Source of the DNA: an uncultured Lachnospiraceae bacterium
GTDB lineage: Bacteria > Bacillota > Clostridia > Lachnospirales > Lachnospiraceae
Assembly (NCBI GenBank): GCA_946407725.1
Contig: CAMJPM010000011.1
Span: forward strand, 1 to 48,700
Length of the DNA: 48,700 nt
Direction of reading: 5' to 3'
The position numbers were made by a program, and so were the translations under genes. A model generated the notes under the pieces. The model saw nothing but the letters and a program-made list of their open reading frames with translations, did no database searches and had not been told where the DNA came from. Of the stretch, positions 4,456 to 46,224 are shown one piece after another. Positions within the stretch are counted from its first letter, which is position 1, and every line of letters begins with the position of its first letter.

Positions 4456-4481
4456 GCGAACCTTAAATGGCGTGGCTCTCA
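4456..4481 (+). repeat. Leader element, copy 1 (upstream of GH5)
   Basis: This 26-nt sequence, core GAACCTTAAATGGCGTGGCT, fills most of the gap between the membrane-protein stop and the GH5 start and ends 26 nt before that start. Three further copies at 10359, 43478 and 46199 have the same orientation and nearly the same distance to a start codon. An internal ATG (4467), preceded by AAGGAAG, opens an 11-codon frame (MAWLSALTKNR) ending at 4502. Confidence 0.8.
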
Positions 4482-4507
4482 GCATTAACAAAGAACAGGT
4501 AATAATA

Positions 4508-5470
4508 ATGAGAAAATTTGAAGGATTCATGAAGGGTGTAAATCTGGGAGGATGGATATCCCAGTTTGATAAATATGATAAGGCTCATTTTGAAAGCTTT
4601 ATTACCGCAAAGGATATAGATTATATAAAGAGCCTTGGATTTGACCATGTGAGAGTTCCGGTGGATTATAACGTGCTGGAGGATGAAGAGGGCAATATTA
4701 AGGAAGACGGTTTCCGCTACCTTTGCGATTGTCTTAATTGGTGCGGGGAGCGGGGGCTGAACATGCTGATCGACCTCCATGAGTGCTTTGGATATTCCTT
4801 TGATCCCTTAAAGAAGGATATGGACAGGTCAAAGTTCTTCTACGACGAAGAGCTGCAGAACAGGTTTTTAAGGCTCTGGAGGGAGATCGCAGAGCGTTTC
4901 GGGTCCTATCCTGACAGGGTGGCTTTTGAACCCCTGAACGAGGTGGTGCTTGAGAGCGTGGCTGACGCCTGGAATAAGGTGCTGAAACGCTATATTGAAG
5001 AGATGAGGGCGGTCACCAGGGACACATATATCATTGCCGGAGGGGTAATGTATAATAATGTCCGCACAGTACCCCTTATCGATATCCCTTTAGATGAAAA
5101 GATCGTCTATAATTTCCACTGCTACGATCCCTTTTTATTCACCCATCAGGGAGCTTACTGGGTGGAGGATATGGATCCGGACTTCAGGACAGGCTATACT
5201 GAAACTGAAGAATATTTTGAAGAGATATTTGCTCCTGCCCTTAAGAAAGCGGAGAAGGACAATGTGCCCTTATACTGCGGTGAATACGGGGTCATAGATC
5301 TGGCGGACAACCATGAAAAGCTTAAATGGCTTAAGGATATCCACTGTGCCTTTGAAAAGCACGGCATAGGACATGCATTATGGAATTATAAGGAAAAGGA
5401 TTTCGGGCTTGTGGATGAAAGCTTCGAAGATATTAGGGAGGATTTTATAAAGCTTTATGGACACACTTGA
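4508..5470 (+). CDS. Intracellular glycoside hydrolase family 5 (endoglucanase-like)
   Basis: A 320-aa TIM-barrel hydrolase with retaining GH5 residues: acid/base Glu145 in PLNEV and nucleophile Glu259 in CGEYG. The N-terminal GVNLGGW and the RVPVDY strand are also typical. There is no signal peptide, so it acts in the cytoplasm, probably on imported beta-glucan or cello-oligosaccharides. I place the start at ATG 4508; an in-frame GTG at 4472 lies inside the repeated leader element and would add 12 unrelated residues. It overlaps the downstream antiporter gene by 14 nt. The exact substrate (beta-1,4, beta-1,3 or mixed glucan) cannot be read from the sequence. Confidence 0.88.
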   Translation: MRKFEGFMKGVNLGGWISQFDKYDKAHFESFITAKDIDYIKSLGFDHVRVPVDYNVLEDEEGNIKEDGFRYLCDCLNWCGERGLNMLIDLHECFGYSFDPLKKDMDRSKFFYDEELQNRFLRLWREIAERFGSYPDRVAFEPLNEVVLESVADAWNKVLKRYIEEMRAVTRDTYIIAGGVMYNNVRTVPLIDIPLDEKIVYNFHCYDPFLFTHQGAYWVEDMDPDFRTGYTETEEYFEEIFAPALKKAEKDNVPLYCGEYGVIDLADNHEKLKWLKDIHCAFEKHGIGHALWNYKEKDFGLVDESFEDIREDFIKLYGHT

Positions 5471-6638
5471 TATTTTATGGGACCTTGCGCTGATAATCCT
5501 TTTTGCCAAGTTTTTTGCCCTTGTGGCAAGAAAATTTAACGCGCCTCAGGTGGCGGGGGAGATCATTGCCGGGATATTGATCGGCCCTACCCTCTTAAAT
5601 CTTGTACAGGATACGGATTTTCTCTCACAGATGGCAGAAGTTGGCGTGATACTGCTTATGTTCAGCGCAGGACTGGAAACGGATCTTGAACAGCTGAAGA
5701 AATCCGGGGTAAAGGCTACCCTCATTGCCTGTGCAGGTGTTTTTACGCCCCTTATTTTCGGAACCCTTATGTATATGTGCTTTTACGGCTTTGATATCAT
5801 AGGTTCCGAAGAGTTTATCAGAGCCCTGTTTATAGGCACCATTCTCACGGCCACATCCGTAAGCATCACTGTGCAGGTATTAAAGGAGCTGGGAAAGATA
5901 TCGTCGGAGCTGGGCATGACCATAATGAGCGCAGCTATAATCGACGATGTTTTAGGAATACTTGTGCTCACAGCGGTCATCGGCATAAAGGATCCGAAGA
6001 GCAATCCGGTCATGGTGGCGGGTAAGACAGTGGCGTTTTTCCTGCTGGTCATCATAGTGGGAATGATAGTTTATCAGATAATGAAGAGGATAGACGAGCG
6101 CTATCCCCACACAAGGCGTATTCCCATCATCTCCATTTCCATAGCATTTATCCTGTCCTTTGTGGCTGACAGATATTTCGGGGTCGCGGATATCACCGGG
6201 GCCTTCTGCGCCGGCGTGATCTTAAGCTCCCTAAAGGATTCGAGCTATATTGAGAGAAGGGTGGATATCAATTCATATACCTTTTTCGGGCCGGTTTTCT
6301 TTGCAAGCATAGGATTGCAGACAAACCTGCGCACACTGGATTCCACTATACTCCTGTTCTCCGTGGCCTTTGTGGTGGTGGGACTGCTTGCAAAGATCGT
6401 GGGCTGCGGACTTATGGCACAGATTTTAGGCTACAGGGGAAGGAGTGCCCTTAAGGTGGGAGTGGGCATGATGACCAGGGGTGAAGTGGCTCTCATCGTG
6501 ACCCAGAGAGGACTGAAGGCCGGGATCATCGGCAGTGAATATTTTACCTCTGTTATATTGCTCATTATCGTTAGCTCACTTCTTACGCCTCTTATTCTGA
6601 AAGCCCTGTTTGCCGGGGATGAAGTATTGACAGCTTAA
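5457..6638 (+). CDS. CPA2-family cation:proton antiporter (KefB/Na+-H+ exchanger type)
   Basis: A 393-aa protein with about 12 membrane helices. Family hallmarks include APQVAGEIIAGILIGP near residue 29, GLETD near residue 72, SAAIIDDVLGI near residue 161 (the paired aspartates expected in the ion site) and FFASIGLQTNL near residue 280. It lacks the TrkA-N/RCK regulatory domain of full-length KefB/C, so it is the short exchanger form. Its start overlaps the end of the GH5 gene, implying translational coupling. The transported ion (Na+, K+) is not determinable. Confidence 0.88.
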   Translation: MDTLDILWDLALIILFAKFFALVARKFNAPQVAGEIIAGILIGPTLLNLVQDTDFLSQMAEVGVILLMFSAGLETDLEQLKKSGVKATLIACAGVFTPLIFGTLMYMCFYGFDIIGSEEFIRALFIGTILTATSVSITVQVLKELGKISSELGMTIMSAAIIDDVLGILVLTAVIGIKDPKSNPVMVAGKTVAFFLLVIIVGMIVYQIMKRIDERYPHTRRIPIISISIAFILSFVADRYFGVADITGAFCAGVILSSLKDSSYIERRVDINSYTFFGPVFFASIGLQTNLRTLDSTILLFSVAFVVVGLLAKIVGCGLMAQILGYRGRSALKVGVGMMTRGEVALIVTQRGLKAGIIGSEYFTSVILLIIVSSLLTPLILKALFAGDEVLTA

Positions 6639-6646
6639 GGCGGAAA

Positions 6647-8374
6647 ATGCAAAATCTTTTTAGGTACTTAAAACCCTATAGAACAGAATGTCTGCTTTCT
6701 CCATTATTCAAGCTTATTGAAGCGGCATTTGAGCTGATCGTTCCCCTGGTGGTGGCATCGCTTATAGATAAGGGGATAGCCGCAAATGACGGAAGGTATG
6801 TTTTGAAAGAGGGCCTGATCCTGATCCTTTTAGGAGCCGCAGGCCTCATCTTTTCGCTTACTGCCCAGTTCTTTGCCGCCAAGGCTGCAACGGGTTTTTC
6901 GGCGCTCCTTCGGCATTCCCTTTTTGAAACCTTAAATGAAATGGACTTTTCGGAGCTTGATACCATAGGAACCGATACATTGATAACACGCATGACTTCG
7001 GATGTGACCCAGATCCAGAACGGTGTCAACATGTTTCTCCGGCTCCTTCTCCGTTCTCCCTTTATTGTCTTTGGCGCAGTGATCATGGCCTTTACGGTAG
7101 ATGTCAGATCAGCCCTTGTATTTGCCGTACTTATTCCCTGCCTTGCAATCGTGGTATTTGTCATTATGAAGGTTACGAGACCTGCATACAGGAAACTTCA
7201 GGAAAAGCTTGACCGGATCACGGGAAAGGTAAGGGAAAATCTGACCGGAGTCAGGGTTATCCGTGCTTTTCATATGGAGGACAGGGAAACAGAGGATTTT
7301 ACCGGTATGGACAGGGAATATGCCTCCGGAGTTGAGCGGATCGGAAGGATATCCTCCCTCTTAAACCCTCTTACCCTGGTGCTGGTGAATCTTTTTACTG
7401 CAGCACTTATCTATACCGGAGCTTTTCAGGTGGATAACGGCTTCATTACCCAGGGCGCACTGGTGGCGCTTATCAATTACATGTCCCAGATCCTGATAGA
7501 GCTAATAAAGCTTGCAAATCTCATAATACTTATCAGTAAGGCTGTGGCCTGTGCCGACAGGGTCGGAGAGCTGCTTACAGGGGAAAATAAGAGGAAAAAT
7601 AACACTCTGGACTTTCCTCAGAAAAAAAACGGTGTTCCCTATATTTCCTTTGAAAATGCCTCATTAAGGTATGAAGGAAGTCCGGAAGCGGCATTGGAAA
7701 ACCTTTCATTTATGATAAATAAGGGCACAGTTACCGGGATAACGGGAGGCACCGGTTCGGGAAAATCCTCCCTTGTCAATATGATTGCCGGATTTTATGC
7801 TGCGGCAGAGGGCTCGGTTAAGATAAACGGCAGGGATATTAAGGATATTGATGAAAAAGCATTAAGGGAAAGGGTCGCAATTGTTTTTCAGAAGAACACC
7901 CTTTTTTCCGGAACCATAGGGGAAAACCTGCGCTGGGGAGATCCTGAGGCAACAGACGCAGAGCTGTGGGAAGCCCTGAAGGTATCCCAGGCGGAGGAGT
8001 TCGTGCGTAAGAGGAAAGGCGGCCTTGACTATATGCTGGAGCAGGGCGGGAAAAATCTGTCCGGAGGGCAGAAGCAGAGACTGTGCATAGCCCGCGCCCT
8101 TGTTAAAAAGCCGGAGATACTGATCCTTGACGATTCGGCTTCCGCCCTGGATTTTGCCACTGATTTAAAGCTTAGGACCGCTATCCGGGAAATGGAGAAA
8201 TCCCTTACGGTTTTCATAGTTTCCCAGCGGGCAGCCTCCATAATGCATTCTGATCAGATCATAGTTCTGGATGACGGAAAAATAAGCGGTATTGGCACCC
8301 ATGCCTTTCTCCTCAGGGAAAACGGGGTTTACAGGGAGATCTATAATTCCCAGTTTCCGGGTGATGCTGAATAA
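6647..8374 (+). CDS. ABC exporter half-transporter, degenerate-site subunit
   Basis: A 575-aa protein with six membrane helices (residues about 15-300) and a nucleotide-binding domain. Walker A is GGTGSGKSS near residue 366 and the signature is LSGGQKQR near 471. Walker B ends in DD (LILDDSASALD, near 492), so the catalytic Glu is Asp. The switch His is replaced by Gln (VSQRAAS, near 525). Heterodimeric exporters of the TM287/288 and BmrCD type carry exactly these changes in one subunit. It forms a pair with the next gene, 28 nt away. The substrate, perhaps a drug, lipid or peptide, is unknown. Confidence 0.92.
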   Translation: MQNLFRYLKPYRTECLLSPLFKLIEAAFELIVPLVVASLIDKGIAANDGRYVLKEGLILILLGAAGLIFSLTAQFFAAKAATGFSALLRHSLFETLNEMDFSELDTIGTDTLITRMTSDVTQIQNGVNMFLRLLLRSPFIVFGAVIMAFTVDVRSALVFAVLIPCLAIVVFVIMKVTRPAYRKLQEKLDRITGKVRENLTGVRVIRAFHMEDRETEDFTGMDREYASGVERIGRISSLLNPLTLVLVNLFTAALIYTGAFQVDNGFITQGALVALINYMSQILIELIKLANLIILISKAVACADRVGELLTGENKRKNNTLDFPQKKNGVPYISFENASLRYEGSPEAALENLSFMINKGTVTGITGGTGSGKSSLVNMIAGFYAAAEGSVKINGRDIKDIDEKALRERVAIVFQKNTLFSGTIGENLRWGDPEATDAELWEALKVSQAEEFVRKRKGGLDYMLEQGGKNLSGGQKQRLCIARALVKKPEILILDDSASALDFATDLKLRTAIREMEKSLTVFIVSQRAASIMHSDQIIVLDDGKISGIGTHAFLLRENGVYREIYNSQFPGDAE

Positions 8375-8402
8375 ACAGTGTTAGACTTTAGAGGAATAGA
8401 AA

Positions 8403-10145
8403 GTGAACAGAGCTTTTCTAAAAAAACTGTATAAATATCTGAAGCCCTACAGGCTGTTTCTCCTGCTGTCAGTTATGATGGCCTTTATTTCCGCCCTCAT
8501 AACCCTCTATATCCCTCTCCTTACAGGAAAAGCGGTGGACTGTGTTCTGGGACCTGGGAAGGTGGATTTTGCCGGGACATTTGGGATAATGGCACGTATT
8601 GCACTGGCTGCCGTTATTTCGGCATTATCACAATATCTCATGAATATCTCAAATAATGCTATGGCCGGCAGGGTGGTAAGGGACATGCGGGATGCGGCCT
8701 TCAGTAAGATTGAAAGGCTTCCCCTTAAATATCTTGACAATCACCCCTACGGCGATCTCTTAAGCCGGGTCATATCGGATGCAGATCAGTTTTCCGACGG
8801 ACTTCTTATGGGTTTTTCCCAGTTTTTTACAGGTCTGGTCACTATTTTCGGAACCCTTTTCTTTATGCTAAGACTGGATTTTAAGCTGGGGCTCCTGGTG
8901 GTGGTCTTAACGCCCCTTTCATTTTTTGTGGCCAGGTTCATCTCTTCCCGTACCTACCGCTATTCCCGCCGTCAGGCCGAGATCAGGGGTAAGGAGACTG
9001 CGTTTGTGAACGAAATGATAAACGGTGCCAGGGTCACTAAGGCTTTTAACAGGGAAGAAAGGGTGCTGCAGGACTTTTCCGGGATAAATGAGGAGTTCCG
9101 GGAGGCTTCCCTTAAGGCCACCTTTTTTTCCAGCCTTACAAATCCCTCAACCAGATTTGTGAATAACGTGATCTATGCGGCTATCGCCATAGTGGGTGCA
9201 AACAGTGTCATGAAGGGGTTACTCACCGTGGGCGGACTTACAAGCTTCCTAAGCTATGCCAGAGAGTATACCAGGCCTTTTAACGAGATCTCGGGAGTGG
9301 TTACAGAGCTGCAGAATGCTTTTGCCTGTGCGGAAAGGCTTATGGATCTAATCGAAGAAAAGCCGGAGAAGCCGGACAGGGAAGATGCCGTTACTCTCAT
9401 AAATCCTGAAGGGAAGATCGATATTGAGAACCTTTCTTTTTCTTATTCTGACGATAAAAAACTTATAGAGGACTTTAATCTGTCGGTCAATCCCGGACAG
9501 CATATCGCCATAGCCGGACCCACCGGCTGCGGCAAGACCACGCTTATCAACCTCCTTATGCGCTTTTACGATATTAAGTACGGCTCCATAAGGGTTGACG
9601 GCGTGGATACTCTGATGGTCACCAGAAAGAGCCTCCGTGATTCCTTCGGGATGGTTTTACAGGACACCTGGCTTAAAAGCGGGACGATACGTGAAAACCT
9701 GATAATGGGGGATACCTCTGTTTCCGATGAGGAAATGATAGCGGCAGCTAAAGCCTGCCACGCCCATTCCTTTATCAGAAAGCTTCCCAAAGGCTATGAC
9801 ACTTATATTTCCGAAGACGGGGGTACCCTTTCCGCCGGGCAGAAGCAGCTCCTCTGCATTACGAGAGCCATGCTTTCAAAGCCTTCCATGCTGATATTGG
9901 ATGAAGCCACCTCTTCCATTGATACCAGGACCGAAATAAAGATCCAGGAGGCCTTTCACAGGATAATGGACGGAAAGACCGGATTCATTGTGGCCCACAG
10001 GCTTTCCACCATCAGGGAGGCGGATCTTATCCTCGTCATGAAGGACGGCAATATCATTGAACAGGGCAGTCATGAGGAACTTCTTGCCCATAAGGGCTTC
10101 TATAACGAACTTTACGAAAGCCAGTTCGCGGGGAATGCGACTTAA
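8403..10145 (+). CDS. ABC exporter half-transporter, catalytic-site subunit
   Basis: A 580-aa protein, partner of the preceding gene. It has six membrane helices followed by a nucleotide-binding domain with canonical Walker A (GPTGCGKTT, near 372), Walker B with catalytic Glu (LILDEATSSID, near 498) and switch His (VAHRLST, near 530). Its signature motif is LSAGQ instead of LSGGQ. In the dimer that motif completes the degenerate ATP site of the partner, so the two proteins are complementary. The start is GTG at 8403, with AGAGG upstream. Confidence 0.92.
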   Translation: MNRAFLKKLYKYLKPYRLFLLLSVMMAFISALITLYIPLLTGKAVDCVLGPGKVDFAGTFGIMARIALAAVISALSQYLMNISNNAMAGRVVRDMRDAAFSKIERLPLKYLDNHPYGDLLSRVISDADQFSDGLLMGFSQFFTGLVTIFGTLFFMLRLDFKLGLLVVVLTPLSFFVARFISSRTYRYSRRQAEIRGKETAFVNEMINGARVTKAFNREERVLQDFSGINEEFREASLKATFFSSLTNPSTRFVNNVIYAAIAIVGANSVMKGLLTVGGLTSFLSYAREYTRPFNEISGVVTELQNAFACAERLMDLIEEKPEKPDREDAVTLINPEGKIDIENLSFSYSDDKKLIEDFNLSVNPGQHIAIAGPTGCGKTTLINLLMRFYDIKYGSIRVDGVDTLMVTRKSLRDSFGMVLQDTWLKSGTIRENLIMGDTSVSDEEMIAAAKACHAHSFIRKLPKGYDTYISEDGGTLSAGQKQLLCITRAMLSKPSMLILDEATSSIDTRTEIKIQEAFHRIMDGKTGFIVAHRLSTIREADLILVMKDGNIIEQGSHEELLAHKGFYNELYESQFAGNAT

Positions 10146-10241: not shown

Positions 10242-10358
10242 TGGTGGAAAATAGAGAATCTTTGTGCTATATTTTGTGTGTATGTTTTTAAAACCGGTAG
10301 ACATAAAGTCAGTACAATACAGTAAAATCGTATTATCCGGTAAGGAGTAAAAGAGGAA

Positions 10359-10384
10359 GCGAACCTTAAATGGTGTGGCTCTCA
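10359..10384 (+). repeat. Leader element, copy 2 (upstream of the large amidase)
   Basis: It differs from copy 1 at one position in the 26-nt core (GGTGTGG for GGCGTGG). It ends 24 nt before the amidase ATG, with the ribosome binding site GCGAGGAG between them. An internal ATG at 10370, preceded by GAGGAAG, opens a 6-codon frame (MVWLSK). Confidence 0.8.
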
Positions 10385-10408: not shown

Positions 10409-13400
10409 ATGGGAAAACGAGGCAGGATTTGGACAGCTTTACTATTGTCGGCGGCAATGACAATGGGAAGCATAAGCACGGGCTTTGCTTCAGAGATCGG
10501 GGAAAGCGCTTCTGTTTCAGCGGATACCGTCTCTGAGGATGACTTTGCAGAGGAGGAGTCAGATAACGGGATCGATCTTTCTCTGGTGAAAGGCGACGAA
10601 AACGCGCTTGGGTCTGAGACGGATGATGATACAGGAGAAAGCTCTGACCGGGCACTTTCTGATGAGGCATTGGAGAGCTCTGTCCAGGCACTTTCTGATG
10701 AAACCGGGGAAAAATCTGACCGGACACTTTCTGATGATACTGTGGAAAGCTCTGACCGGATACTTTCAGACGATACCGTGGAAAGCTCTGTTCAGACACT
10801 TTCTGATGAGACCGGTGAAGGTTCTGCCCAGGCACTTCCGGAGGAGAACGGCGAAGTATCAGGTGATTCTGTAGAAGAGATGGTCATATCGGAGACAGTC
10901 AGCACTGATGAAGCACCCTCTGCCGAAAAAGCAGAAACCGGAGCAGGCCTTTTATCCCTGGAAGATAAGGAGGCGGAGCTGGACGAGGATTCCACCACCC
11001 ATACCTACACTACCAAAGAATACAGTAAGGAATACGACGGAAATGAGTTTACGCCGAAATACACGGTACCGGCGGGTCACATTTTGTTATCACAGAATGA
11101 TATTAAATCTCCGGTAATTAAAAAAGAAAACGAGGAGTTTCAATTCAAGCCCATTAAGTTCGTATCTGAAACCCAGATATATTATGTATATCCGGCTGAA
11201 CCGGCGAAGGATGACGACTATGACTTCGTTTTGAAGAGTACCATTACAAAGAGACCCATAACCTTCAGAAGCGGAACCTATACAAAGATTTATGACGGTA
11301 CTCCTCTTTCCCAGGATTCAGCTCCGGGAGCACAGAAGCCCAGGGCTGTAAAGGGTTCCATGGTGGGGACCGAGGAATTTGCCTTTAAGTTTGATAAAGA
11401 TGCACAGATCACGGAGCCGGGTTCGGTTAAGAATAAATTCGCTGTATCCGAAAACGGTAATTCGGCCGAACCCAATAACTACGAGGTCAGCTACGAATAC
11501 GGGGATCTGATAGTGGCCGAAAAGCGGGAAAAAGTCAACAGTCTTGCGGAGCCCGTAAATGCAAGGGCCATAATAAACAAGAAGGGTGCGGTCAAGCTCA
11601 TCTGGAAAAAGGTGACAAGCTATAAGGCTACAGGTAAGAAAGGCGGAAAGACATCATATAAGATATACAGATATAAGGATGACGGAACCTGGACCAAGCT
11701 GACAGATGGTCAAACCAAGACAAATTATCTGGATAACAGCCCGGCTGAAGGAGAGAGAATGATCTACAAGATCATCCCCGAGGGAACGGATTCCTCCGGT
11801 GAATACGGCGAAGGAGAAACACCGGCTTATGTGCGGGTTACACCGAAGATAGTTTCCGTTTCACCCTATGACGGCATCCATTATGCAAACGTGACATTTT
11901 TGGGATGTGGCTCCGATACCGATAAATACACTCTGAACCACTGGAACAACAAAAATAAGGGATCGGTGGACGAGATAGTAAATATAACAAGATACAATAC
12001 CACGCTTTCCACATATAAACTGAACTCGGGCAGGACACTTAGCTCAAACTCCTATCTGGATGCGGGAGGAGACAGCGTAACTATCTCAGGCAATAATAAG
12101 GCCACCTTTAGTTTCAAGATCAAGGCAGAGGAGACCACGGTCTATGACTACGGTAAGGCAATTGAGCTGGAGGACAGCCGTTGGTCAAAGATAGTTAAAC
12201 TTAAGATGATATCTATGTCCCCCTATCTTAAGGGAAAGAGAAAGAGCGATACGTCCTTCACGCTTGAATGGGATACCATAAAGAAGGCAACAGGCTATCT
12301 CGTGGAGTACAGCAAGGACAGCAAGTTCTCTGAACTGTATACCACAAAGAAATACTTAAACGGCAGGGAAAACGATGAATATGAAGTTAAGGATGTGGGA
12401 ACGGGAATTCCGTTCTATTGCAGGGTAACGGCATATACAAAGAAAAAGAGTGACGGCAGTGAATACGGCACAGCTCTCGGAACCTCAAATGTCATTATCC
12501 AGTACGGACGGCAGAAAGCTGTTAAAAAACTGAAGGCGGAATATTATGAAGACGGAAATCCCAGAGCTGATGCGAGACTTACCTGGGAGGATGATGAGAA
12601 TGATATCAAGGGATATTATGTACAGAGATGGAGCTATGAATACAATTCAACAACCAAGGCTTATGATAAGCTGACGGGACATGCGGTACTCCAGAACTAT
12701 ACGGCCTCAGATAATAACACCAAGAAGAGGTATGCAAACACCGAGGGAGGCAAGATCACAAACGGAGAACTTATCAAATACTCCGTACAGTCGGTAAGAC
12801 TGATGAACGACAGGTCTCTTGGTGAAAACCACGACGGTTACGTATTCAGTGAGCCTGCGGAATTCTTTTACATGAACCCCAAGGAGGTTGAGTTTAAGAA
12901 GGCCAAGTATAATGTCAAGGTGGACGCTACCCTTGAGACCTCGGTCAAGCTTAAGCCCAAAAAGCTTCCGAAGAAATTTGACGGCTATAAGGAGTCCGAG
13001 TTCAAGGAGATATTCCTCTTCAATGATGATCTTGACTATGGTTTAAGGAGTGAGAGCAGATATACCAGCTCCGAGCTCAAGAAGTATATAACTGTTAACC
13101 CTGATACAGGAAAGCTTACCGGAAAGGACATTACGAAGGGTTCAGACATATACCTGAAGGTCAGCTCTCCCAATGATCCTAACAATGTTTATGACGAGGT
13201 AAAGGTGGCTGTGCTGAAAAACGGTGAATCCTCAGGTTCAGGCGGCGGCAGTTCCTCCTCCACCCTCAGGGTCTGCATAGACGCAGGACATGGCGGAGAT
13301 GACAACGGCACCACCCATAATGATCTTGTGGAAAAAGAAGTCAATCTGAAGATCGCAAAGAAAGTGGGAAAGTATCTGGAGGATGAGGGCGCAAAGGTTT

Positions 13401-13825
13401 ACTACACCAGAACTGATGACAGCTATGTATCACTTACCAAGAGAACTGACATAGCTGCGGATAAGGACTGTGACCTCTTTGTCAGCATACATTGCAATGC
13501 TTCTGACAAAAGCTCTTCTACCAGGGGAACAGAGGTTTACTATTCCGTAAAGAGTGAGTATGCCAAGAAGTCGCTTTCAAAGAAAGTCTGCGATGCGGTG
13601 GCTGATGCCCTGGGAACTAATTCCATAGGGGCAAAGACAAGGGAGGGAAGTGACGGAGACTATTATTCCGTGATACGTACCTCCGCTGCCAAGGGAATAC
13701 CCGGAATAATCGTAGAACATGCATTTATTACAAATAAAAAGGATGCCGAAGCCCTTAAGGATGACGATCTTATCGACAAGGCTGCAAAGGCAGAGGCGAA
13801 GGCTATTTATAATAACTGGAAATAA
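10409..13825 (+). CDS. Large secreted N-acetylmuramoyl-L-alanine amidase with repeat stalk
   Basis: A 1138-aa protein with a signal peptide (residues 1-28, cleavage after TGFAS). An acidic Ser/Asp/Glu-rich region follows, with six 12-residue repeats (78-149). Next come YDG/MBG-like beta domains (about 185-365; EYDGNEF, IYDGTPL) and fibronectin-III-like modules (about 370-830). The C-terminal amidase_3 domain (953-1138) has zinc ligands in DAGHGG, VEKEVNL and SIHCN, and the catalytic Glu in VEHAF. It should cleave the MurNAc-L-Ala bond in peptidoglycan at the cell surface. No sortase signal or choline-binding repeats are seen. The lipoprotein gene follows after 2 nt. Confidence 0.92.
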   Translation: MGKRGRIWTALLLSAAMTMGSISTGFASEIGESASVSADTVSEDDFAEEESDNGIDLSLVKGDENALGSETDDDTGESSDRALSDEALESSVQALSDETGEKSDRTLSDDTVESSDRILSDDTVESSVQTLSDETGEGSAQALPEENGEVSGDSVEEMVISETVSTDEAPSAEKAETGAGLLSLEDKEAELDEDSTTHTYTTKEYSKEYDGNEFTPKYTVPAGHILLSQNDIKSPVIKKENEEFQFKPIKFVSETQIYYVYPAEPAKDDDYDFVLKSTITKRPITFRSGTYTKIYDGTPLSQDSAPGAQKPRAVKGSMVGTEEFAFKFDKDAQITEPGSVKNKFAVSENGNSAEPNNYEVSYEYGDLIVAEKREKVNSLAEPVNARAIINKKGAVKLIWKKVTSYKATGKKGGKTSYKIYRYKDDGTWTKLTDGQTKTNYLDNSPAEGERMIYKIIPEGTDSSGEYGEGETPAYVRVTPKIVSVSPYDGIHYANVTFLGCGSDTDKYTLNHWNNKNKGSVDEIVNITRYNTTLSTYKLNSGRTLSSNSYLDAGGDSVTISGNNKATFSFKIKAEETTVYDYGKAIELEDSRWSKIVKLKMISMSPYLKGKRKSDTSFTLEWDTIKKATGYLVEYSKDSKFSELYTTKKYLNGRENDEYEVKDVGTGIPFYCRVTAYTKKKSDGSEYGTALGTSNVIIQYGRQKAVKKLKAEYYEDGNPRADARLTWEDDENDIKGYYVQRWSYEYNSTTKAYDKLTGHAVLQNYTASDNNTKKRYANTEGGKITNGELIKYSVQSVRLMNDRSLGENHDGYVFSEPAEFFYMNPKEVEFKKAKYNVKVDATLETSVKLKPKKLPKKFDGYKESEFKEIFLFNDDLDYGLRSESRYTSSELKKYITVNPDTGKLTGKDITKGSDIYLKVSSPNDPNNVYDEVKVAVLKNGESSGSGGGSSSSTLRVCIDAGHGGDDNGTTHNDLVEKEVNLKIAKKVGKYLEDEGAKVYYTRTDDSYVSLTKRTDIAADKDCDLFVSIHCNASDKSSSTRGTEVYYSVKSEYAKKSLSKKVCDAVADALGTNSIGAKTREGSDGDYYSVIRTSAAKGIPGIIVEHAFITNKKDAEALKDDDLIDKAAKAEAKAIYNNWK
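10640..10855 (+). repeat. Six in-frame 36-bp repeats in the amidase gene
   Basis: Residues 78-149 consist of six 12-residue units: SSDRALSDEALE, SSVQALSDETGE, KSDRTLSDDTVE, SSDRILSDDTVE, SSVQTLSDETGE and GSAQALPEENGE. They form an acidic, serine-rich stalk. The high DNA similarity between units suggests growth by duplication, so copy number may vary between strains. Confidence 0.85.
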
Positions 13826-38729: not shown

Positions 38730-40862
38730 ATGTTAGATAGGAAAACCTGTAGAAAAAAGGCAGAGGAACTTGTGAGTAAAATGACCATCACGGAGGCTGC
38801 ATCCCAGCTTCTTCACCAGTCGCCGGCCATTGAACGGCTGGGTATACCGGAATACAACTGGTGGAGCGAGGGACTGCACGGAGTGGCCAGAGCCGGGATT
38901 GCCACTGTTTTCCCACAGGCAATAGGAATGGCCGCATCCTTTGATGAAGCATTTCTTGGAAAAGAAGCTGACGTGATAGCCACGGAAGCCAGGGCAAAAT
39001 ACAATGCCGCCAGCAGAAGGGACGACAGGGATATATATAAGGGACTGACCTATTGGAGTCCCAACATAAATATCTTCAGGGATCCCAGATGGGGGCGGGG
39101 CCATGAGACCTATGGAGAGGATCCCCTTCTCACGGAAAAGATGGGAAATTCCTTCATCAAGGGCCTTCAGGGAGACGGAAAAAGCGGCTTTTTAAAGATA
39201 GCTGCCTGTGCCAAGCACTATGCGGTGCATTCGGGGCCGGAAGCTCTGAGACATGGCTTTGACGTATCCCCTTCCGAAAAGGATCTTAACGAGACCTACC
39301 TTCCTGCCTTTAAGGGCGCAGTAAAGGAAGCGGGAGTAGAGGCTGTGATGACGGCTTATAACAGCGTTTTCGGAGAGCCCTGCTCCGCAAATGACCGGCT
39401 CATAAACGAGATTCTGAAGAAGGAATGGGGATTTGAGGGGCATATCGTATCTGACTGCTGGGCAGTCAGGGATATCCACGAGAGCCATCATTTTACAAAA
39501 AGACCCCAGGATTCTGCGGCCATTGCGGTAAAACGGGGCTGTGACCTGAACTGCGGATGCACCTACGAGTACCTGATGATGGCTTATGATGAGGGACTCG
39601 TTACGGAAGAGGAGATCCGCACTGCAGCAATAAGGGTCTTCACCACCAGGTATCTTCTGGGAATGTTTGAAGAAAAGGATCCCTACGGCGATATTCCTTA
39701 TTCCGTGGTCAATTGCGAAGAACACCATGCCCTGGCTTTAGAAGCCGCAAGGAAATCCATGGTGCTCTTAAAAAATGACGGTATCCTTCCAATAGATAAA
39801 AACAAGATAAGCTCCGTGGCCGTGATAGGTCCCAACGCGTATAGTGCAAAGGCTCTCTATGGGAATTACAACGGAGACAGCGGAAGGTGGTGCACAAACT
39901 TAGACGGCATAAGAGCCGCTTTGGAAGATGACGTCAGGCTTTACTACAGCAAGGGATGCGATATCGTGGATGAAAAAGAAGATCCTCTGGCAAAGCCCGG
40001 GAAATACTTAAGCGAGGCTGAGGAGATAGCCTCAATAAGCGATGTTACCATACTCTGTCTGGGACTTGACGCAGATCTGGAAGGAGAAGAGGGAGACACT
40101 GGAAATGCCTTTGCATCCGGGGACAAGATGGATCTTCTTCTGACATTGCCCCAAAGGAAGCTCTGTGACAGGATCCTCTCTCTTGGAAAGCCAGTTGTTA
40201 TTGTGATAAACAGTGGAAGTGCATTGGATCTCTCTGCTTATGAAGACAAGTCATCGGCCATAATTCAGGCCTGGTACAGCGGTGAAGCAGGGGGAGAAGC
40301 CCTTGCAGATATACTTTTCGGGCGTGTGAGTCCTTCCGGAAAGCTGCCTCTCACTTTCTATTATAATGACAACGCTCTTCCTGAATTCACGGACTATCAC
40401 ATGGCAGGCCGTACTTACAAGTTCCTTAAGGATAAACCCTGGTATCCCTTTGGATACGGTCTTTCCTATACGGAGTTCGCTTATGAAAATACGGAAGCCG
40501 ATGTGACGGAAAACGGGGTCAGGATAAAGACAGACATAAAAAATACCGGTTCCTTTGACGCCAACGAGATAGCGGAGGTTTACATAAGATATGAAGAACA
40601 GGCCTTTGAAAAGCCGGTCCATCATCTGGCGGATTTCAAGTCTTTGTTAATTAAAGCCGGGTCTATGGAGACCGTTATGTTTGACCTCCCCTTATCGCGC
40701 TTTGCATCTGTCCTGGAAGACGGAAAAGAAGCCGTTCTGGATGGACAGTATACCGTGTTCATCGGAGGAACCCAGCCGGATCTGAGGAGCTTTGAACTGA
40801 CAGGCAGGAGGCCGGAAGAGATAAGGTTTGAGGTCAGGGACGGGAAAATTGAAAAGTGCTGA
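38730..40862 (+). CDS. Glycoside hydrolase family 3 beta-glucosidase/beta-xylosidase
   Basis: A 710-aa cytoplasmic GH3 enzyme with no signal peptide. The N-terminal barrel has FPQAIGMAASFD, SPNINIFRDPRWGRGHETYGEDP and the nucleophile Asp242 in VSDCWAV. The second domain has the KNDGILPI and GPNA motifs. A fibronectin-III-like C-terminal domain follows (about 590-700). The GRGHETYGEDP form occurs in both beta-glucosidases and beta-xylosidases; the cellobiose phosphorylase next to it favours glucosides. GGAGG precedes the ATG. Confidence 0.92.
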   Translation: MLDRKTCRKKAEELVSKMTITEAASQLLHQSPAIERLGIPEYNWWSEGLHGVARAGIATVFPQAIGMAASFDEAFLGKEADVIATEARAKYNAASRRDDRDIYKGLTYWSPNINIFRDPRWGRGHETYGEDPLLTEKMGNSFIKGLQGDGKSGFLKIAACAKHYAVHSGPEALRHGFDVSPSEKDLNETYLPAFKGAVKEAGVEAVMTAYNSVFGEPCSANDRLINEILKKEWGFEGHIVSDCWAVRDIHESHHFTKRPQDSAAIAVKRGCDLNCGCTYEYLMMAYDEGLVTEEEIRTAAIRVFTTRYLLGMFEEKDPYGDIPYSVVNCEEHHALALEAARKSMVLLKNDGILPIDKNKISSVAVIGPNAYSAKALYGNYNGDSGRWCTNLDGIRAALEDDVRLYYSKGCDIVDEKEDPLAKPGKYLSEAEEIASISDVTILCLGLDADLEGEEGDTGNAFASGDKMDLLLTLPQRKLCDRILSLGKPVVIVINSGSALDLSAYEDKSSAIIQAWYSGEAGGEALADILFGRVSPSGKLPLTFYYNDNALPEFTDYHMAGRTYKFLKDKPWYPFGYGLSYTEFAYENTEADVTENGVRIKTDIKNTGSFDANEIAEVYIRYEEQAFEKPVHHLADFKSLLIKAGSMETVMFDLPLSRFASVLEDGKEAVLDGQYTVFIGGTQPDLRSFELTGRRPEEIRFEVRDGKIEKC

Positions 40863-40925
40863 GGCAGGCAGTAATTAAGCCTTGACGGATAAGGTAAAAA
40901 ACGTTTAAGAGAAAGGAACAAAACC

Positions 40926-43358
40926 ATGCAATACGGACATTTTGATGACAAAGCAAAAGAGTATGTGATAACCACCCCCAGGACGCCCCTGCCCTGGATC
41001 AATTATCTTGGCAGCAGGGAGTTCTTCGGGCTTATCTCAAATACAGCGGGAGGCTATGATTTTTATAAGGATGCAAAGCTCCTCCGCCTTACCAGGTATC
41101 GTTATAACAACTGTCCTTTGGATACGGGAGGCCGTTATTATTACATAAAGGACGGCGATACCATTTTTAATCCCGGATGGCAGCCGGTAAAGACGGAGCT
41201 CGATGAATACGAATGCCGCCACGGCCTGGGATACAGCCGCATAACCGGCACAAAGAACGGTTTGGAAGCGTCCCTTTTAGCCTTTGTTCCTGTAGAGGAT
41301 ACCTGTGAAGTGAACCGGATCACCCTTACGAACAGGTCTTCTGAAAAGAAGGATATAAGTCTTTTCAGCTTCGTGGAGTTCTGCCTGTGGAATGCCGCAG
41401 ATGACAGTTCCAATTTCCAGAGGAACTTCTCCACCGGAGAGGTGGAAGTAGAGGGCGGCACTATTTACCATAAGACCGAGTACAGGGAGAGAAGGAACCA
41501 TTATGCGGTCTATTCCGTGAATAAGGAGATAGAGGGCTTTGATACCAGCAGGGATGCCTTCATTGGTGTGTATAACGGTTTTGACAAGCCGGAAGCAGTT
41601 ATAGAAGGAAAGAGCAGGAACAGTATAGCCCATGGCTGGCAGCCCATAGGAAGCCACCATCTCAAGTGTTCCCTTGCACCCGGAGAGAGCGAAAGCTTCA
41701 TCTTCGTTCTGGGATATTGCGAAAACCCGGTTAATGAGAAGTTCGTTTCTCCCGGCGTTATAAACAAGAAGCCTGCGGAGGCCCTGCTTTCAAAGTATAA
41801 GACAGATGAGCAGGTAGACGGTGCCTTTGATGAATTAAATAAGTACTGGGACAGGCTCCTCTCCGCCTATACTGTAAAAACATCAGACGAAAAGCTGAAC
41901 AGGCTGGTAAACGTCTGGAATCAGTACCAGTGCATGGTGACCTTCAATATGAGCCGAAGCGCCAGCTATTATGAGAGCGGAATGGGAAGAGGAATGGGCT
42001 TCAGGGATTCCTGCCAGGATCTTTTAGGCTTCGTGCACCTGATCCCGGAGAGGGCCAGAGAAAGGATAATTGACATTGCGAACACCCAGTTTGAGGACGG
42101 CAGTACCTATCATCAGTACCAGCCCCTTACTAAAAAGGGCAATGCCGACATAGGCGGCGGTTTCAATGACGATCCGCTTTGGCTGATAGCAGGAACCTGC
42201 GCATACTTAAGGGAGACGGGAGACTTCTCCATCCTTGATGAGAAATGCGCCTTCGACAGCGATTTTTCAAAAGCAGTACCCTTAATGGAGCATCTCCGCA
42301 GGAGCTTTAATTTCACAGATACCCATAAGGGACCCCATGGTCTGCCTCTCATTGGAAGGGCTGACTGGAATGACTGTCTGAACCTGAACTGCTTCTCGGA
42401 GGAGCCGGGTGAAAGCTTCCAGACCTTTGGCCCCAGTGAGGGACCGGTGGCAGAAAGCGTTTTTATCGCCGGAATGTTCGTTAAGTACGGCAAAGAGTAT
42501 GCAGAGCTCTGTGAGGTAAGAGGTCTTAAGGAAGAGGCACAGAAGGTCCTTTCCTCCGTTTCCGAAATGGAGAAGGCCATAGAGGGTGCCGGCTGGGACG
42601 GAGAATGGTTCCTCAGGGCCTATGATGCAAAATCAAATCCGGTGGGAAGCCATGTAAACGAAGAGGGACAGATCTACATCGAGCCCCAGGGTATGTGCAT
42701 CATGGCAGGTGTAGGTACTGAAGACGGCAAGGCTCTCAAAGCCCTGAAGAGTGTGGAGGAAAAGCTGGATACGGAGTACGGCATCGTCCTTCTGCAGCCG
42801 GCCTATACCCGCTACCATGTGGAACTGGGAGAGATCTCATCCTATCCGCCGGGGTACAAGGAAAACGCCGGAATTTTCTGTCATAATAACCCCTGGGTCG
42901 CCTGTGCGGAGACCGTTATGGGACACGGCAACAGGGCCTTTGAGATCTTCAAGAAGACCTGCCCGGTATATCTGGAAGAAAAGAGCGAGATCCACAGGAC
43001 GGAGCCCTATGCCTACTGTCAGATGGTAGCAGGATGCGACGCTCCTACATTTGGAGAGGGAAAGAACAGCTGGCTTACGGGAACAGCTGCCTGGACCTTT
43101 ACCACCATAAGCCAGTACATACTTGGAATAAAGCCTTCATTAAAGGGACTTATGGTAGATCCCTGCATACCTTCATTCCTGAAGAGCTACAGCGTAGACA
43201 GGATCTACAGAGGGGTTACTTATCATATAACCATCGAAAATCCCGATGGATCCGAGCATGGCGTAAAGTCTGTGACGGTTAACGGTAAGAGTGTGGAGGG
43301 AAATCTGATCCCGCCCGTTACGGACGCTAAAGAGGCAGAAGTTAAAGTGGTTATGTAA
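40926..43358 (+). CDS. Cellobiose phosphorylase (GH94)
   Basis: An 810-aa protein with the full cellobiose phosphorylase signature: [24 protein letters not shown] at the start, [21 protein letters not shown] with [28 protein letters not shown], and the catalytic acid Asp483 in [10 protein letters not shown]. It splits cellobiose with phosphate to glucose 1-phosphate and glucose, saving ATP. There is no signal peptide. It closely resembles the clostridial enzyme. It is 63 nt after the GH3 gene, in one transcription unit with the transporter. Confidence 0.95.
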
Positions 43359-43360
43359 AC

Positions 43361-43441
43361 CGCTTGGCATTTTGTCCGGATTTATTCCGGAATATAATTT
43401 CACGCGGGCAGATTTTCTGCCCGCAAGTTGTCTGTCAAGCG
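43361..43441 (+). repeat. Three-way-junction hairpins after the GH94 gene
   Basis: The outer stem CGCTTG (43361-43366) pairs with CAAGCG (43436-43441). It encloses TCCGGA-tttat-TCCGGA (43375-43391) and a perfect 9-bp hairpin GCGGGCAGA-ttt-TCTGCCCGC (43404-43424). The short TTGGTTTT after the outer stem could make it a terminator. Confidence 0.55.
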
Positions 43442-43477
43442 TTGGTTTTAAGTTATTGAGAACCGTCCCGTGGGGAA

Positions 43478-43503
43478 GCGAACTTTAAATGGCGTGGCTC
43501 TTG
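43478..43503 (+). repeat. Leader element, copy 3 (upstream of the LysM protein)
   Basis: It differs from copy 1 at three positions (GAACTTT for GAACCTT, and the final TTG for TCA). It ends 21 nt before ATG 43525. The GGAGG ribosome binding site lies between. The preceding GGGGAAG is 9 nt before the internal ATG 43489. Confidence 0.78.
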
Positions 43504-43524
43504 GAATTATGGAGGGAGCAAAAA

Positions 43525-44441
43525 ATGGATAAAAAAGAGATTATTCGGCAGCATTATCATTTCTGCTGACAGTATTGGTGATTGTGGCAGGCTTTTCCGT
43601 ACAGGTGCCGGCTGAAGGATTGTCCGGGACTGCATATCAGGTTCAGAAAAACGACAGTCTTTATAAGATTGCCGGGACACAGCTTGGATCCGGAGACAGA
43701 TGGACTGAAATATACGAACTGAATAAGGATGCGATAAAGGATCCGTTCATCATCTATACCGGGCAGATATTTTCGCTTCCGGCATCCGGACAGGATCTGT
43801 CTGATGCCCGGGGAATCACGGCTGATGATATTCCGGCTGCAGAGGAGAATAAACCGGACGAACAGAAAGAAGCCGACAAATATGCAGAGCAGCTTTATGA
43901 TGCGGCAAAAAAAGCAGAACCCGGTATTACCGTTGTTCTTAAAGCGCTGGAATCGGACAAGGCTCACCTTGAGGGGCTGGAACACTGTCTGAAATCAGTT
44001 GAGAGCACAAGCCGGAAGATATTGACGAATGCTCATGATATGGAGATATCACCTGAGGAAGCTTCAAAAATTATCAATGATTCCCTAAGATACACATTTG
44101 TGATCAATGATCAGGACTATGTTGAGACAACCAGACTTATTACAGATACTCTTATTGCCTGTGGCTACTCTATAGTTAAGTTTAAGAATTATTGGGCCAA
44201 AAAAGATGTGGCATATCAGGGAATAAACGCCCTGTTTAAGACTAAAGAAGGAGTGATCTTTGAACTTCAGTTTCATACCACTGTTTCCTATTACACAAAG
44301 GGAGAAAAGACCCATGGGTATTATGAGATAATGAGAAGTGAGACCGCTTCGGAGAAAGAAAAGGCCGAGGCAAGTAAAAAGCAGGATGCGGAATTTGCGC
44401 TGATCCCGGTGCCGGAGGGGGCGGAGATGCTTTCATATTAA
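43525..44441 (+). CDS. Secreted LysM protein with RelA/SpoT-like domain; reading frame broken in the signal peptide
   Basis: From ATG 43525 (GGAGG upstream) the frame stops after 14 codons. The main frame is open from 43533 to 44441. One extra A in the A6 run at 43531-43536 would join them into an export signal (MDKKRDYSAALSFLLTVLVI...), giving about 305 aa. The mature part has a LysM wall-binding domain (GTAYQVQKNDSLYKIAG) and an acidic linker. The C-terminal region has the pattern DSLRYTF, AYQGIN, FELQFHT, THGYYEIMR and IPVPEG. I read this as the RelA/SpoT-like nucleotidyltransferase fold known from alarmone synthetases and some toxins. Without the frameshift, translation could start only at TTG 43575 or later. 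Confidence 0.7.
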
Positions 44442-44465
44442 GGGAAGGAGCGGAAAGGATATTTT

Positions 44466-44651
44466 ATGGATGAAAAACCAAGATATTATAAATTTGTTTT
44501 AGGCAGCGTCATAGTCAGACGTATAGGAGACAAAATAGAAAAAAAAGGTAAAAACGGTTTGTGGGAAGATGCCGGAAACCTTGCCTGGCGCTTTTCACGT
44601 GACGACGATTCACTGATCGAGATAAGCGAAAAAGAAGTCATGTCTTCCTGA
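44466..44651 (+). CDS. Small hypothetical protein (61 aa)
   Basis: A 61-residue charged protein with no signal peptide or membrane helix, probably a small beta-rich domain (YYKFVLGSVIVRRIGD, GLWEDAGNLAWRF, DDSLIEISEKEV). GGAAAGG precedes the ATG. It starts 24 nt after the LysM/RelA-SpoT-like gene, so the two are cotranscribed. Small proteins with this WEDAG...EISEEE pattern seem, from memory, to be widespread in Lachnospiraceae and are uncharacterised. A protective partner for the upstream toxin-like domain is possible but unproven. Confidence 0.72.
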   Translation: MDEKPRYYKFVLGSVIVRRIGDKIEKKGKNGLWEDAGNLAWRFSRDDDSLIEISEKEVMSS

Positions 44652-44655
44652 AAAG

Positions 44656-44684
44656 TAGACATAAAAGGGGGTTTTTGGTAAAAT
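44656..44684 (+). promoter_or_regulatory. Promoter placed directly at the start of the HtrA-like gene
   Basis: TAGACA (44656-44661), a 17-nt spacer and TAAAAT (44679-44684) match the consensus at five of six positions each. The predicted transcription start is about 4 nt before ATG 44695, and there is no Shine-Dalgarno sequence at the right distance, so the mRNA would be almost leaderless. Confidence 0.55.
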
Positions 44685-44694
44685 ATAAAAATCT

Positions 44695-46146
44695 ATGGAC
44701 GAAAATAATTCTTCTGAATATCAGTTTATAAAAGAGACCATAAAGGATAGACCCGTCAATAAAAGGAGGGTCATTCTCCGTATCCTTATGGTCATTATCT
44801 GTGCCCTTCTTTTCGGGGCTGTTTCCGCCAGCGTTTTCCTTATGACAGTGAACCATTATATGCCCGCAGAAAAAGAGATCTCTGCGCTTCCCGTGAATAT
44901 TCCAAGGGATGATGATGTGGAAGCCGTAAGCGAGGACAGGACTGAAACCGAGGAAACAACTGAAGCCTCCACGGAGGAAGAGGCTGATATTACCGAAGCC
45001 TCCGAAGAAGCCTCTGAAGAAGCCTCTGAAGAAGCCTCTGCAGAGGCTGTATCAGAGAACGATACTGACAGTGCTTCTGCCGGGACTCCGGATGACAGTT
45101 CTGCCGAAACCGAAGCTCCCCGTAACATTTCCTATATCACGGAGCATGTTTCCCTCTCTGTTGAGGACTATAAGAGTCTCTACCGGACACTTAAAAATGT
45201 CGCAGCCGAAGCAGGCAGATCAATTGTCACCGTCACCACCATTACCAGTGATAAGGACTGGTTTGAAAACTCCTATGAAAATGCAGACAGCCTTGCAGGA
45301 CTTATTGTCGCAAATAACGGAAAGGATCTTCTGATCCTGTCTGAAATTCCCAGTATTGGTGAAGATACAGAGCTGAACGTGACCTTTGCAGACAATATCA
45401 CTCTTCCCGGTGAAGTGAAATCCACGGACAGCGATACCGGACTTGCCATAATCTCGGTTCTCTTAAGCTCCATTCCGGATGAAACAAAAGATGCCATTTC
45501 CGAGGCTGAGCTGGGCAACTCCAGAGGCACAAATGTGGTAGGCATTCCCGTGATGGCTCTCGGCAGTCCTTTAGGTATCCAGGGAAGCCAGTGTTTCGGA
45601 AGAACCACCTCAAACCAGCGTGAGATCTCCATGCCTGACAGGAATGTTCACGTTCTCAGCACGGATATTTACGGAAGCGGCAATGCAACCGGAGTGATCA
45701 CGGACTACGACGGAAAGATCCTCGGTATTATCGCCCAGAATACTGCCCTTGAGGATGCGCCTAATCTCCTTTCCGCCTATGCCATATCGGATCTCAAGGA
45801 TTTGATAGAAAAGCTTTCAAACGGGTCCTCCGAAACATATCTGGGAATTTACGGTACCGACGTCACCTCTTCCATAAACGAGGAACAGGGGGTTCCATTA
45901 GGATTTTATGTTACAAAGGTAGCCCTTGATTCCCCGGCAATGTCCGCTGGAATACAGAGCGGAGACGTAATCACCAGACTCGGGACTGTTGATATAGAGA
46001 AAGCCCGTGACTACATGGAACAGATGCTTAAATATCAGCCGGGAGATGAAGCGGTTATCACGGTGGAAAGATATTCCCAGGGTGAATTCCAGGAAATGAC
46101 TTTCGAAGTGAATTTTGACGATGCCGCAGATCACAGTGCCAGTTGA
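44695..46146 (+). CDS. Membrane-anchored HtrA-like pseudoprotease with PDZ domain
   Basis: A 483-aa protein with a cytoplasmic N-terminus (1-25), one membrane helix (about 27-50), and a Glu/Ala/Ser/Thr-rich spacer (about 60-140, with repeated EASE). A trypsin-like HtrA domain (about 145-375) and a PDZ domain (about 385-475; GFYVTKVALDSPAMSAGIQSGDVITRLG) follow. The catalytic Ser of GNSGG is Ala331 (GNATG), and no His is seen at the usual TNxHV position (LLILSEIPSI). It is therefore probably not a protease but a sensor or scaffold at the cell surface. Confidence 0.85.
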   Translation: MDENNSSEYQFIKETIKDRPVNKRRVILRILMVIICALLFGAVSASVFLMTVNHYMPAEKEISALPVNIPRDDDVEAVSEDRTETEETTEASTEEEADITEASEEASEEASEEASAEAVSENDTDSASAGTPDDSSAETEAPRNISYITEHVSLSVEDYKSLYRTLKNVAAEAGRSIVTVTTITSDKDWFENSYENADSLAGLIVANNGKDLLILSEIPSIGEDTELNVTFADNITLPGEVKSTDSDTGLAIISVLLSSIPDETKDAISEAELGNSRGTNVVGIPVMALGSPLGIQGSQCFGRTTSNQREISMPDRNVHVLSTDIYGSGNATGVITDYDGKILGIIAQNTALEDAPNLLSAYAISDLKDLIEKLSNGSSETYLGIYGTDVTSSINEEQGVPLGFYVTKVALDSPAMSAGIQSGDVITRLGTVDIEKARDYMEQMLKYQPGDEAVITVERYSQGEFQEMTFEVNFDDAADHSAS

Positions 46147-46198
46147 AGGTATCGCAATATCACAAATATTTGATGTGTGATGTCCCCCGGCGAGGGGA

Positions 46199-46224
46199 GT
46201 GAACCTTAAATAGCGTGGCTATCA
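46199..46224 (+). repeat. Leader element, copy 4 (upstream of the YhaM-like gene)
   Basis: It matches copy 1 except at three positions (GTGAACC, AAATAGC, GGCTATC). It ends 25 nt before ATG 46250. A CCCC-cggcga-GGGG hairpin (46184-46197) directly precedes it. Here the internal ATG is ATA, so the short upstream frame seen in copies 1-3 is missing. Confidence 0.75.

Follow-up and report, generated by a model that had tools for sequence, protein, structure and literature searches.

Four short leader sequences, each lying just upstream of an unrelated gene in a 48,700-nt stretch of an uncultured Lachnospiraceae genome (assembly GCA_946407725.1, contig CAMJPM010000011.1; hereafter the window), are probably the 3' ends of a structured, multi-copy interspersed repeat that inserts, or is retained, next to Shine-Dalgarno (SD) sequences. 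The initial annotation had described these leaders as four sense copies of a 26-nt element at a constant distance from start codons and had proposed a cis-acting mRNA element. That observation was confirmed and proved to be larger than first described.

All four copies were recovered on the + strand with a 20-nt core (4458-4477, 10361-10380, 43480-43499 and 46201-46220), with 0, 1, 1 and 1 mismatches rather than the one to three changes reported initially. The mean number expected was 0.01, and none of 100 shuffles reached four copies. A position matrix built from the short copies of the genome scored the four at 49-55 bits and found no fifth copy in the window with more than 4 bits; shuffling the window five times yielded a best score of 5.8 bits. 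The extended core end (...GGCTCTC) was separated from the start codon by 27 nt (ATG 4508), 25 nt (ATG 10409) and 26 nt (ATG 46250), and behind copy 3 by 22 nt, as counted by hand, from an ATG with a good SD (43525). The constant spacing claimed for the four copies was upheld, with the reservation that the start behind copy 3 opens a frame of only 14 codons.

Copies of the core in the host genome

In the genome to which the window belongs (3.28 Mb in 162 contigs; labelled G000, genomes and loci being given below by labels in G and L), the core was found 54 times at up to three mismatches, compared with two matches for a reversed-pattern control. Together with seven copies from a second pattern, these formed a working set of 61 distinct copies, of which 48 were classed as short and 13 as full or nearly so. 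A script flagged 19 copies as having a possible 5' strand of the hairpin P1 described below, and 13 of these were retained by eye; six (the window copy at 10364, L022, L045, L054, L057 and L118) were judged to be chance pairings.

Placement was scored by a rule that required a start codon 14-36 nt downstream, a frame of at least 45 codons or one running off the contig, and an SD-like tetramer. The rule was satisfied in the sense direction by 51 of the 61 copies (40/48 short, 11/13 full) and on the other strand by none of the 61; among random positions, drawn from fetched loci that are rich in gene starts, the figure was 398/6000 (6.6%). Ten copies were scored as misses (window copy 3 at 43480, L010, L018, L026, L029, L049, L052, L114, L042 and L112). 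The rule is strict, as L029 has a visible start at 27 nt; window copy 3 fails through its interrupted frame. Over 101 copies the centre of the SD lay 12.9 nt (sd 3.0) past the core, and anchoring to the SD was not separable from anchoring to the start codon by copy distances. At L042 (2396-2498, - strand) a thiamine pyrophosphate (TPP) riboswitch, the G-rich 5' strand of which resembles an SD, starts directly 3' of a full element, in place of a gene start.

Family matches were sought for a hand-picked set of 20 of the 61 proteins encoded downstream. Curated cut-offs were passed by the products of leuA, wecB, trpS, asd, murD, recA, sbcD, mutL and frr, and by a uridine phosphorylase, a phosphate acetyltransferase and an ammonium transporter. 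Good matches that fell below the equivalog cut-off, or were to a broader model only, were obtained for putP-like, carbamate-kinase-like, glutamine-synthetase-like, adenylation-domain, SsuA-like and ABC-F-like proteins, and two of the 20 had no family. No theme common to these 20 genes and the four genes of the window was found. The initial annotation had suggested a tabulation of downstream genes; those examined are unrelated and have no shared theme of the kind a riboswitch would call for.

Structure of the full element

Several G000 copies continue 5' into a longer conserved unit. The full element is ~81 nt long and consists of a hairpin H1 (16 bp), a short linker and a hairpin P1 (9 bp)/P2 (5 bp). 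The latter has a bulge of unpaired bases on its 3' side, TTNNAAT in most members, and most also have a final YTC. The core corresponds to the bulge and the 3' strand of P1, and the window copies are 3' parts of the full element from which the 5' half is absent. The purine-rich GGAAG/GGGAG noticed earlier before these copies is real and represents the P2 3' arm with the neighbouring insert. In copy 4 an insert hairpin (46159-46197) was recognised by eye against the full form; it had been missed by ungapped extension because of a 1-nt deletion. Genes 53% identical to the one behind copy 2 carry fuller elements in G015 and G007 (L063, L098).

Base changes in the core of G007 and G015 members are compensated on the 5' side (GCCACGCC with GGCGTGGC, GCCACGGC with GCCGTGGC, and GCCACGTC with GACGTGGC). 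In an alignment of 28 close full elements (A1), 94% of cells were paired and 47 double-change cells were counted, compared with 12.1 after shuffling. A covariance model gave matches at E 0.001 in 14 of 14 genomes tried, these having been picked for holding the core pattern and some matches being the reverse strand of the palindromic H1. For a wide alignment, 60 loci with matches were selected in 16 genomes, and 62 matches (61 distinct) passed E 2e-7. Across these 61 distinct full elements 95.8% of cells pair, double changes occur in 30/30 base pairs, the double-change cells number 409 versus 97.6 when shuffled, and the covariation score is 0.641 versus at most 0.079 for slid partners. Having been fitted to the model, this alignment is biased in its favour, but the slid and shuffled controls are still far below.

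In both alignments, compensatory base-pair changes exceeded the controls, as is characteristic of a structured RNA or single-stranded DNA family. Five full elements folded as RNA (z -6.2 to -9.3) and four as single-stranded DNA (z -7.6 to -10.0); because the structure is stable as both, covariation does not tell which form is functional. Many copies, the same spacing and covarying pairs, named at the outset as support for a cis-acting mRNA element, were all found once related full-length elements were included, although a reading of the 26-nt piece itself as a riboswitch-like unit was not supported. P1 differs widely in sequence between lineages, and little besides the short bulge, the loop and the H1 motif is fixed across them. 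No Rfam match was obtained on the window at the gathering threshold; on ten full-element loci, searched up to E 1, there was one irrelevant match (IRES_IGF2 in L209, E 0.43), far below the family threshold.

The compensatory changes bear on the view that the leaders are a promoter or DNA operator, which we consider very unlikely. The element does place a conserved DNA word upstream of genes, and its TTAAAT resembles a -10 box, but a duplex DNA site does not explain compensatory changes. A -10 box has A at its second position, and this A is not kept. Moreover, for 29 of the 61 G000 copies a same-strand frame of 90 or more codons ends no more than 90 nt upstream, as inside operons.

At two loci, L093 (G015) and L109 (G023), the insert hairpin unit is tandemly repeated inside the element. 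The next gene is identical between them over 475 aa, which suggests either transfer or shared contamination of the drafts.

Ends of the copies, and filled and empty sites

In all 48 short G000 copies, similarity to the full consensus reaches no further than 0-34 nt to the left of the reference position, a measure that underestimates some of them, such as window copy 4, since the extension is ungapped. In seven of the 13 full or nearly full copies the match is 62, 103 or 104 nt long; in the remaining six it extends for 0 nt (L112 and L115, another sequence version), 16 nt (L020), 37 nt (L011), 52 nt (L051) and 80 nt (L034). The cause is either an indel or a different version, at which ungapped extension ends, or a copy that is itself shorter. 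Many copies begin at the P2 arm or the adjoining insert hairpin and have no 5' part. This combination of a fixed 3' end with variable 5' truncation is of the retroelement type; in any given copy, decay of an older 5' part may be the cause instead.

Twelve gene-start queries gave 11 matches in UBA3762 (G117), nine in UBA4316 (G118) and none in RUG11784 (G119), and eight orthologous pairs from UBA3762 and UBA4316 were aligned. A full element is present between GCGA.. and GAAAAGAGG at L251, and the corresponding site at L254 is empty; L246, with a 5'-cut copy beginning at the P2 loop, is likewise matched by an empty site at L260. L242 carries a short and a full copy where L252 has neither, and L248 a decayed short and a full copy where L259 has the short one only. 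Three of the eight pairs were of little use (L255/L258 could not be aligned, L245/L250 have unrelated upstream DNA, and L247/L256 aligned well only from the SD on).

Tandem copies share a few nt, which is ambiguous as a target-site duplication. A rule that new copies land 3' of older ones would fit L242, L248, L088, L280 and L288; it is not claimed, because it is contradicted by L084, which has an intact copy upstream and a copy without the P1 3' strand downstream. At L127 (UBA4316) and L161 (UBA3762) the last part of the core is repeated right before the start codon of one gene.

Occurrence in related lineages

A strict search detected the core in 4 of 117 relatives, G000 included, and a looser one in 6 of 48 members of the genus, mainly G000, G007 and G015. 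When GTDB contigs were scanned with YTTRAATGSCGTGGCTCTCM, 44 stretches were obtained, 42 of them titled Lachnospiraceae (14 of these naming rumen or reticulum); no stretch with the core was found in viral contigs. Among these, the matches at L059 (G050, one of the four genomes of the strict search) and at L110 and L111 (G005, looser search) were judged to be chance matches in coding DNA, and the two stretches not titled Lachnospiraceae, in Kurthia (L146) and Prevotella (L155), were also attributed to chance. At E <= 1e-5 the model matched 8 of 299 genomes of the family (8/298 genera), including G280, which has the same element places as UBA3762. Three of 392 genomes of the class were matched, the one outside the family by a single weak match. 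Weak members are lost in broad scans because stricter filters apply above 40 genomes. The element is patchy, with lineage-specific versions.

Counts of placement by lineage refer to the loci examined, not to all matches per genome, and two places are doubly labelled (L131 = L239, L133 = L229). Elements were SD-adjacent at 15/18 loci in G015, 12/14 in G007, 11/14 in UBA3762, 5/6 in UBA4316, 4/5 in RUG11784, 7/7 in G121, 5/6 in G123, 4/6 in G018, 1/2 in G120, 3/3 in G294, 4/4 in G341 and 3/3 in G194. Smaller sets gave 1/2 for core matches of G018/G023, 0/1 for RUG12067, 1/1 for RGIG8400 (core matches also) and 1/1 for RUG14855/811; L107 of G018 was still counted as a miss, even though it resembles a chance coding match. 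The other-strand control outside G000 yielded five in all (UBA4316 1/6, UBA3762 1/14, G122 two and G186 one). Of 66 diverged elements, the 21 with the H1 motif GTTTTC..GAAAAC were SD-adjacent in 20 cases, compared with 13/45 of those without the motif. Lineages with and without SD placement provide a natural comparison.

A diverged version at L219 and L224 (G005, G018) lies, as judged by eye, between the apparent end of polA upstream and a coaE-like gene downstream.

Properties of the short form

Window copies 1-4 folded no better than shuffles (z -0.55, -1.18, 0.79 and 0.14), and a riboswitch was rejected for the short form. Neither RNAalifold nor a helix scan with shuffles revealed a common secondary structure or a covarying helix among short copies. 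For the element as a whole, the small riboswitch suggested initially is extremely unlikely. The full form is a structured 5'-leader sequence, but the covarying structure belongs to the 81-nt element and the 5'-cut copies lack that fold, lineages have little fixed sequence in common, and no pathway unites the genes examined. Neither a described aptamer family, by Rfam, nor, among the genes examined, a coherent downstream set, either of which would mark a riboswitch, was found.

The MAWL/MVWL frame, proposed earlier as a leader peptide, would have to control the downstream gene, and such a role is now scarcely credible. Its ATG is intact in 50 of the 61 copies, but departures by codon position were 15/17/18 over the 14 positions from the ATG, which shows no greater freedom at third positions inside the core; with four flank positions added they were 40/28/47. 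The frame ranges in length from two codons to a fusion with the gene, and in many copies of relatives the codon after the ATG is CCG instead of GCG. A leader peptide was rejected for the short form on account of these departures and the arbitrary frame ends.

Predicted accessibility of the SD in G000 was 0.505, compared with 0.563 with a shuffled element (p 0.026, 55 copies); there was no significant difference in relatives (0.446 versus 0.471, p 0.14, 29 copies). Sequestration or exposure of the SD was rejected, the predicted effect being small in G000 and not significant in relatives.

Targeting, selection and mobility

We propose that the element spreads as one unit whose 3' end is invariant and that it inserts, or survives, immediately 5' of purine tracts resembling an SD, which would account for the constant distance to start codons. 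It would then join the mRNA 5' leader, as two hairpins in the full form or as a little-structured tail ending in CUCUC in the short form, where its effect may be a general one, a modest influence on ribosome access or mRNA processing at most, and not the sensing of a ligand. Two observations speak for targeting, the TPP riboswitch at L042 and the repeated insertion at a single SD. Two others speak for selection on the short form, namely the low divergence of the core relative to the GAAC arm and, unless it was inserted there independently, its presence before the same gene in three species. Targeting and selection can each be partly right.

A number of observations weigh against the proposal. 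Selection for position could mimic targeting, and in 43 short copies divergence is lower in the 15-nt core (37/645) than in the GAAC arm (20/172; p 0.011), which hints at constraint on the short form. The filled and empty pairs do not prove direction; the L241/L257 pair fits loss equally well, and no target-site duplication was seen by eye at L251/L254. Counts in G000 miss copies with more than three mismatches. The family does not show SD placement throughout, because the elements of G122 (3/15 SD-adjacent), G186 (0/9), G330 (1/4), G005 (1/4) and G265 (1/3) are scattered, some of them inside open frames (L209, L212; G122 loci L201-L215, G186 loci L293-L301). Among possible mobilising enzymes, Y1_Tnp was not found in G007, G015 or 10 of the 14 genomes of a second scan (G018 belongs to both scans), and RVT_1 was found in 7 of 16 carriers and not in the other 9, although in both cases the drafts may be incomplete.

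A post-transcriptional regulon, in which one protein or small RNA binds the linear core AAATGSCGTGGCTCTC beside the SD and the repeats have spread by carrying this site, is a possible but unlikely explanation. The narrow SD distance, the sense placement, the low divergence of the core and the slightly lower predicted accessibility in G000 would all suit it, as would the fact that three species have the core, with different 5' parts, upstream of one and the same gene (L016, L087 and L096; proteins 88-96% identical). A regulon sits less well with genes that have no common theme, with an accessibility difference that is not significant in relatives and with full forms that pair the core inside P1. 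In addition, the full copy at L042 precedes a riboswitch and not a gene directly, and P1 varies widely in sequence between lineages.

Repetitive extragenic palindromic (REP) sequences with RAYT have a GTAG-like linker and a bulged hairpin. The present element has the bulged hairpin too and, in its close members, a linker of this type (for miniature inverted-repeat transposable elements, see the review PMC10969869). We nevertheless consider it improbable that this is a REP-like element, with GTAG tetranucleotide and bulged hairpin, mobilised by a Y1 (RAYT/TnpA) transposase. GTAG or GCAG does precede P1 in the 28 close members, and the element also folds stably as single-stranded DNA; the linker is not GTAG, however, in the G005 members or in L224 and L225 of G018, and the location differs from that of REP sequences. 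The loci of nine Y1 genes contained no element at E 1 or better, and with the enzyme not found in most of the draft carrier genomes tested a Y1 transposase was rejected as the general mover.

SINE/LINE-like 5'-truncated retrocopies (short and long interspersed nuclear elements) have a fixed 3' end and a ragged 5' end, and the element is like them in this respect. A SINE-like mechanism is doubtful: DNA would be synthesised on a leader RNA with its own SD, starting at the 3' end of that RNA and using the SD as microhomology, and the copies would land in sense just before the SDs of other genes, often cut at the hairpin apex. Unlike the case of such retrocopies, the RNA intermediate is hypothetical here, and with RVT_1 in only 7 of 16 carriers a reverse transcriptase was rejected as the general mover. 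If this mechanism did apply, many unrelated genes would have been re-equipped with one shared folded 5' leader.

Comparison with known repeats

ERIC/IRU/RU-1 and other small mobile repeats are ~100-200 bp long and occur in many copies with stable stem-loops; ERIC is co-transcribed and has an orientation-dependent link to mRNA stability, and the same source lists both terminal inverted repeats and target-site duplication for ERIC, Correia and RUP (PMC2229807). The present element is likewise multi-copy with stable stem-loops. Unlike ERIC, Correia and RUP, it has unlike ends, shows no duplication at the one clean site and lies in sense before SDs in most lineages examined; terminal inverted repeats, as in miniature inverted-repeat transposable elements, were not found, the left end (GGTACTG/GGTGGTG) not being complementary to the right end (GGCTCTC).

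The pneumococcal BOX, RUP and SPRITE are interspersed structured repeats that are over-represented between convergent genes, and one BOX lies between T-box riboswitches (PMC3049150); in contrast, SD-type lineages carry the present element in sense before start codons. The beta-proteobacterial repeat element BRE, of ~90 bp, has full and partial copies that are usually intergenic and in both orientations (PMC3110155). It is similar to the present element in size and in having full and partial copies, but it belongs to another phylum, and SD placement was not found described for it in the accessible part of that article.

No SD-adjacent, sense-only repeat was found in the accessible parts of PMC2229807, PMC3049150, PMC3110155 and PMC10969869, where small bacterial repeats are mostly intergenic and without such a fixed place before genes. 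None of the titles and abstract openings retrieved in a literature search described this element, which is weak evidence since most subscription journals lay outside its reach. For a bacterial repeat, placement this strict is unusual: members of a structured family supply dozens of unrelated genes, including recA, murD and trpS, with similar sense 5' leaders beside the SD. If insertion is targeted, a novel mechanism that recognises SD tracts would be implied; if selection keeps the element there, it would constitute a widespread translation or mRNA-processing module.

Features of the window

The copies and the genes that follow them are listed in Table 1. A Pfam scan supported the GH5, amidase, LysM and YhaM-like assignments made initially for the four gene products; RelA/SpoT, which had also been suggested, had no match among them at E 0.001.

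Table 1. Copies of the element in the window and the genes downstream of them.
Feature	Position	Strand	Remarks
Copy 1	4453..4480	+	5'-cut 3' part of the element, before GH5 gene (ATG 4508)
GH5 cellulase family gene, downstream of copy 1	4508..5470	+	Pfam; start set at ATG 4508, not at the listed GTG 4472
Copy 2	10352..10383	+	5'-cut 3' part, before Amidase_3 gene (ATG 10409)
N-acetylmuramoyl-L-alanine amidase gene, downstream of copy 2	10409..13825	+	Pfam Amidase_3
Copy 3	43469..43502	+	5'-cut 3' part, before SD and ATG 43525
LysM-domain open frame, downstream of copy 3	43575..44441	+	Pfam; TTG 43575 is merely the first start in that frame
Copy 4	46159..46223	+	3' part with remains of the insert hairpin (46159-46197), before OB/HD (YhaM-like) gene (ATG 46250)
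OB-fold and HD domain gene, downstream of copy 4	46250..47203	+	Pfam

Behind copy 3, the frame from ATG 43525 stops after its 14 codons and the LysM frame lies in another register, with its first start at 43575. The stretch 43525-43575 represents either an assembly error or a broken gene.

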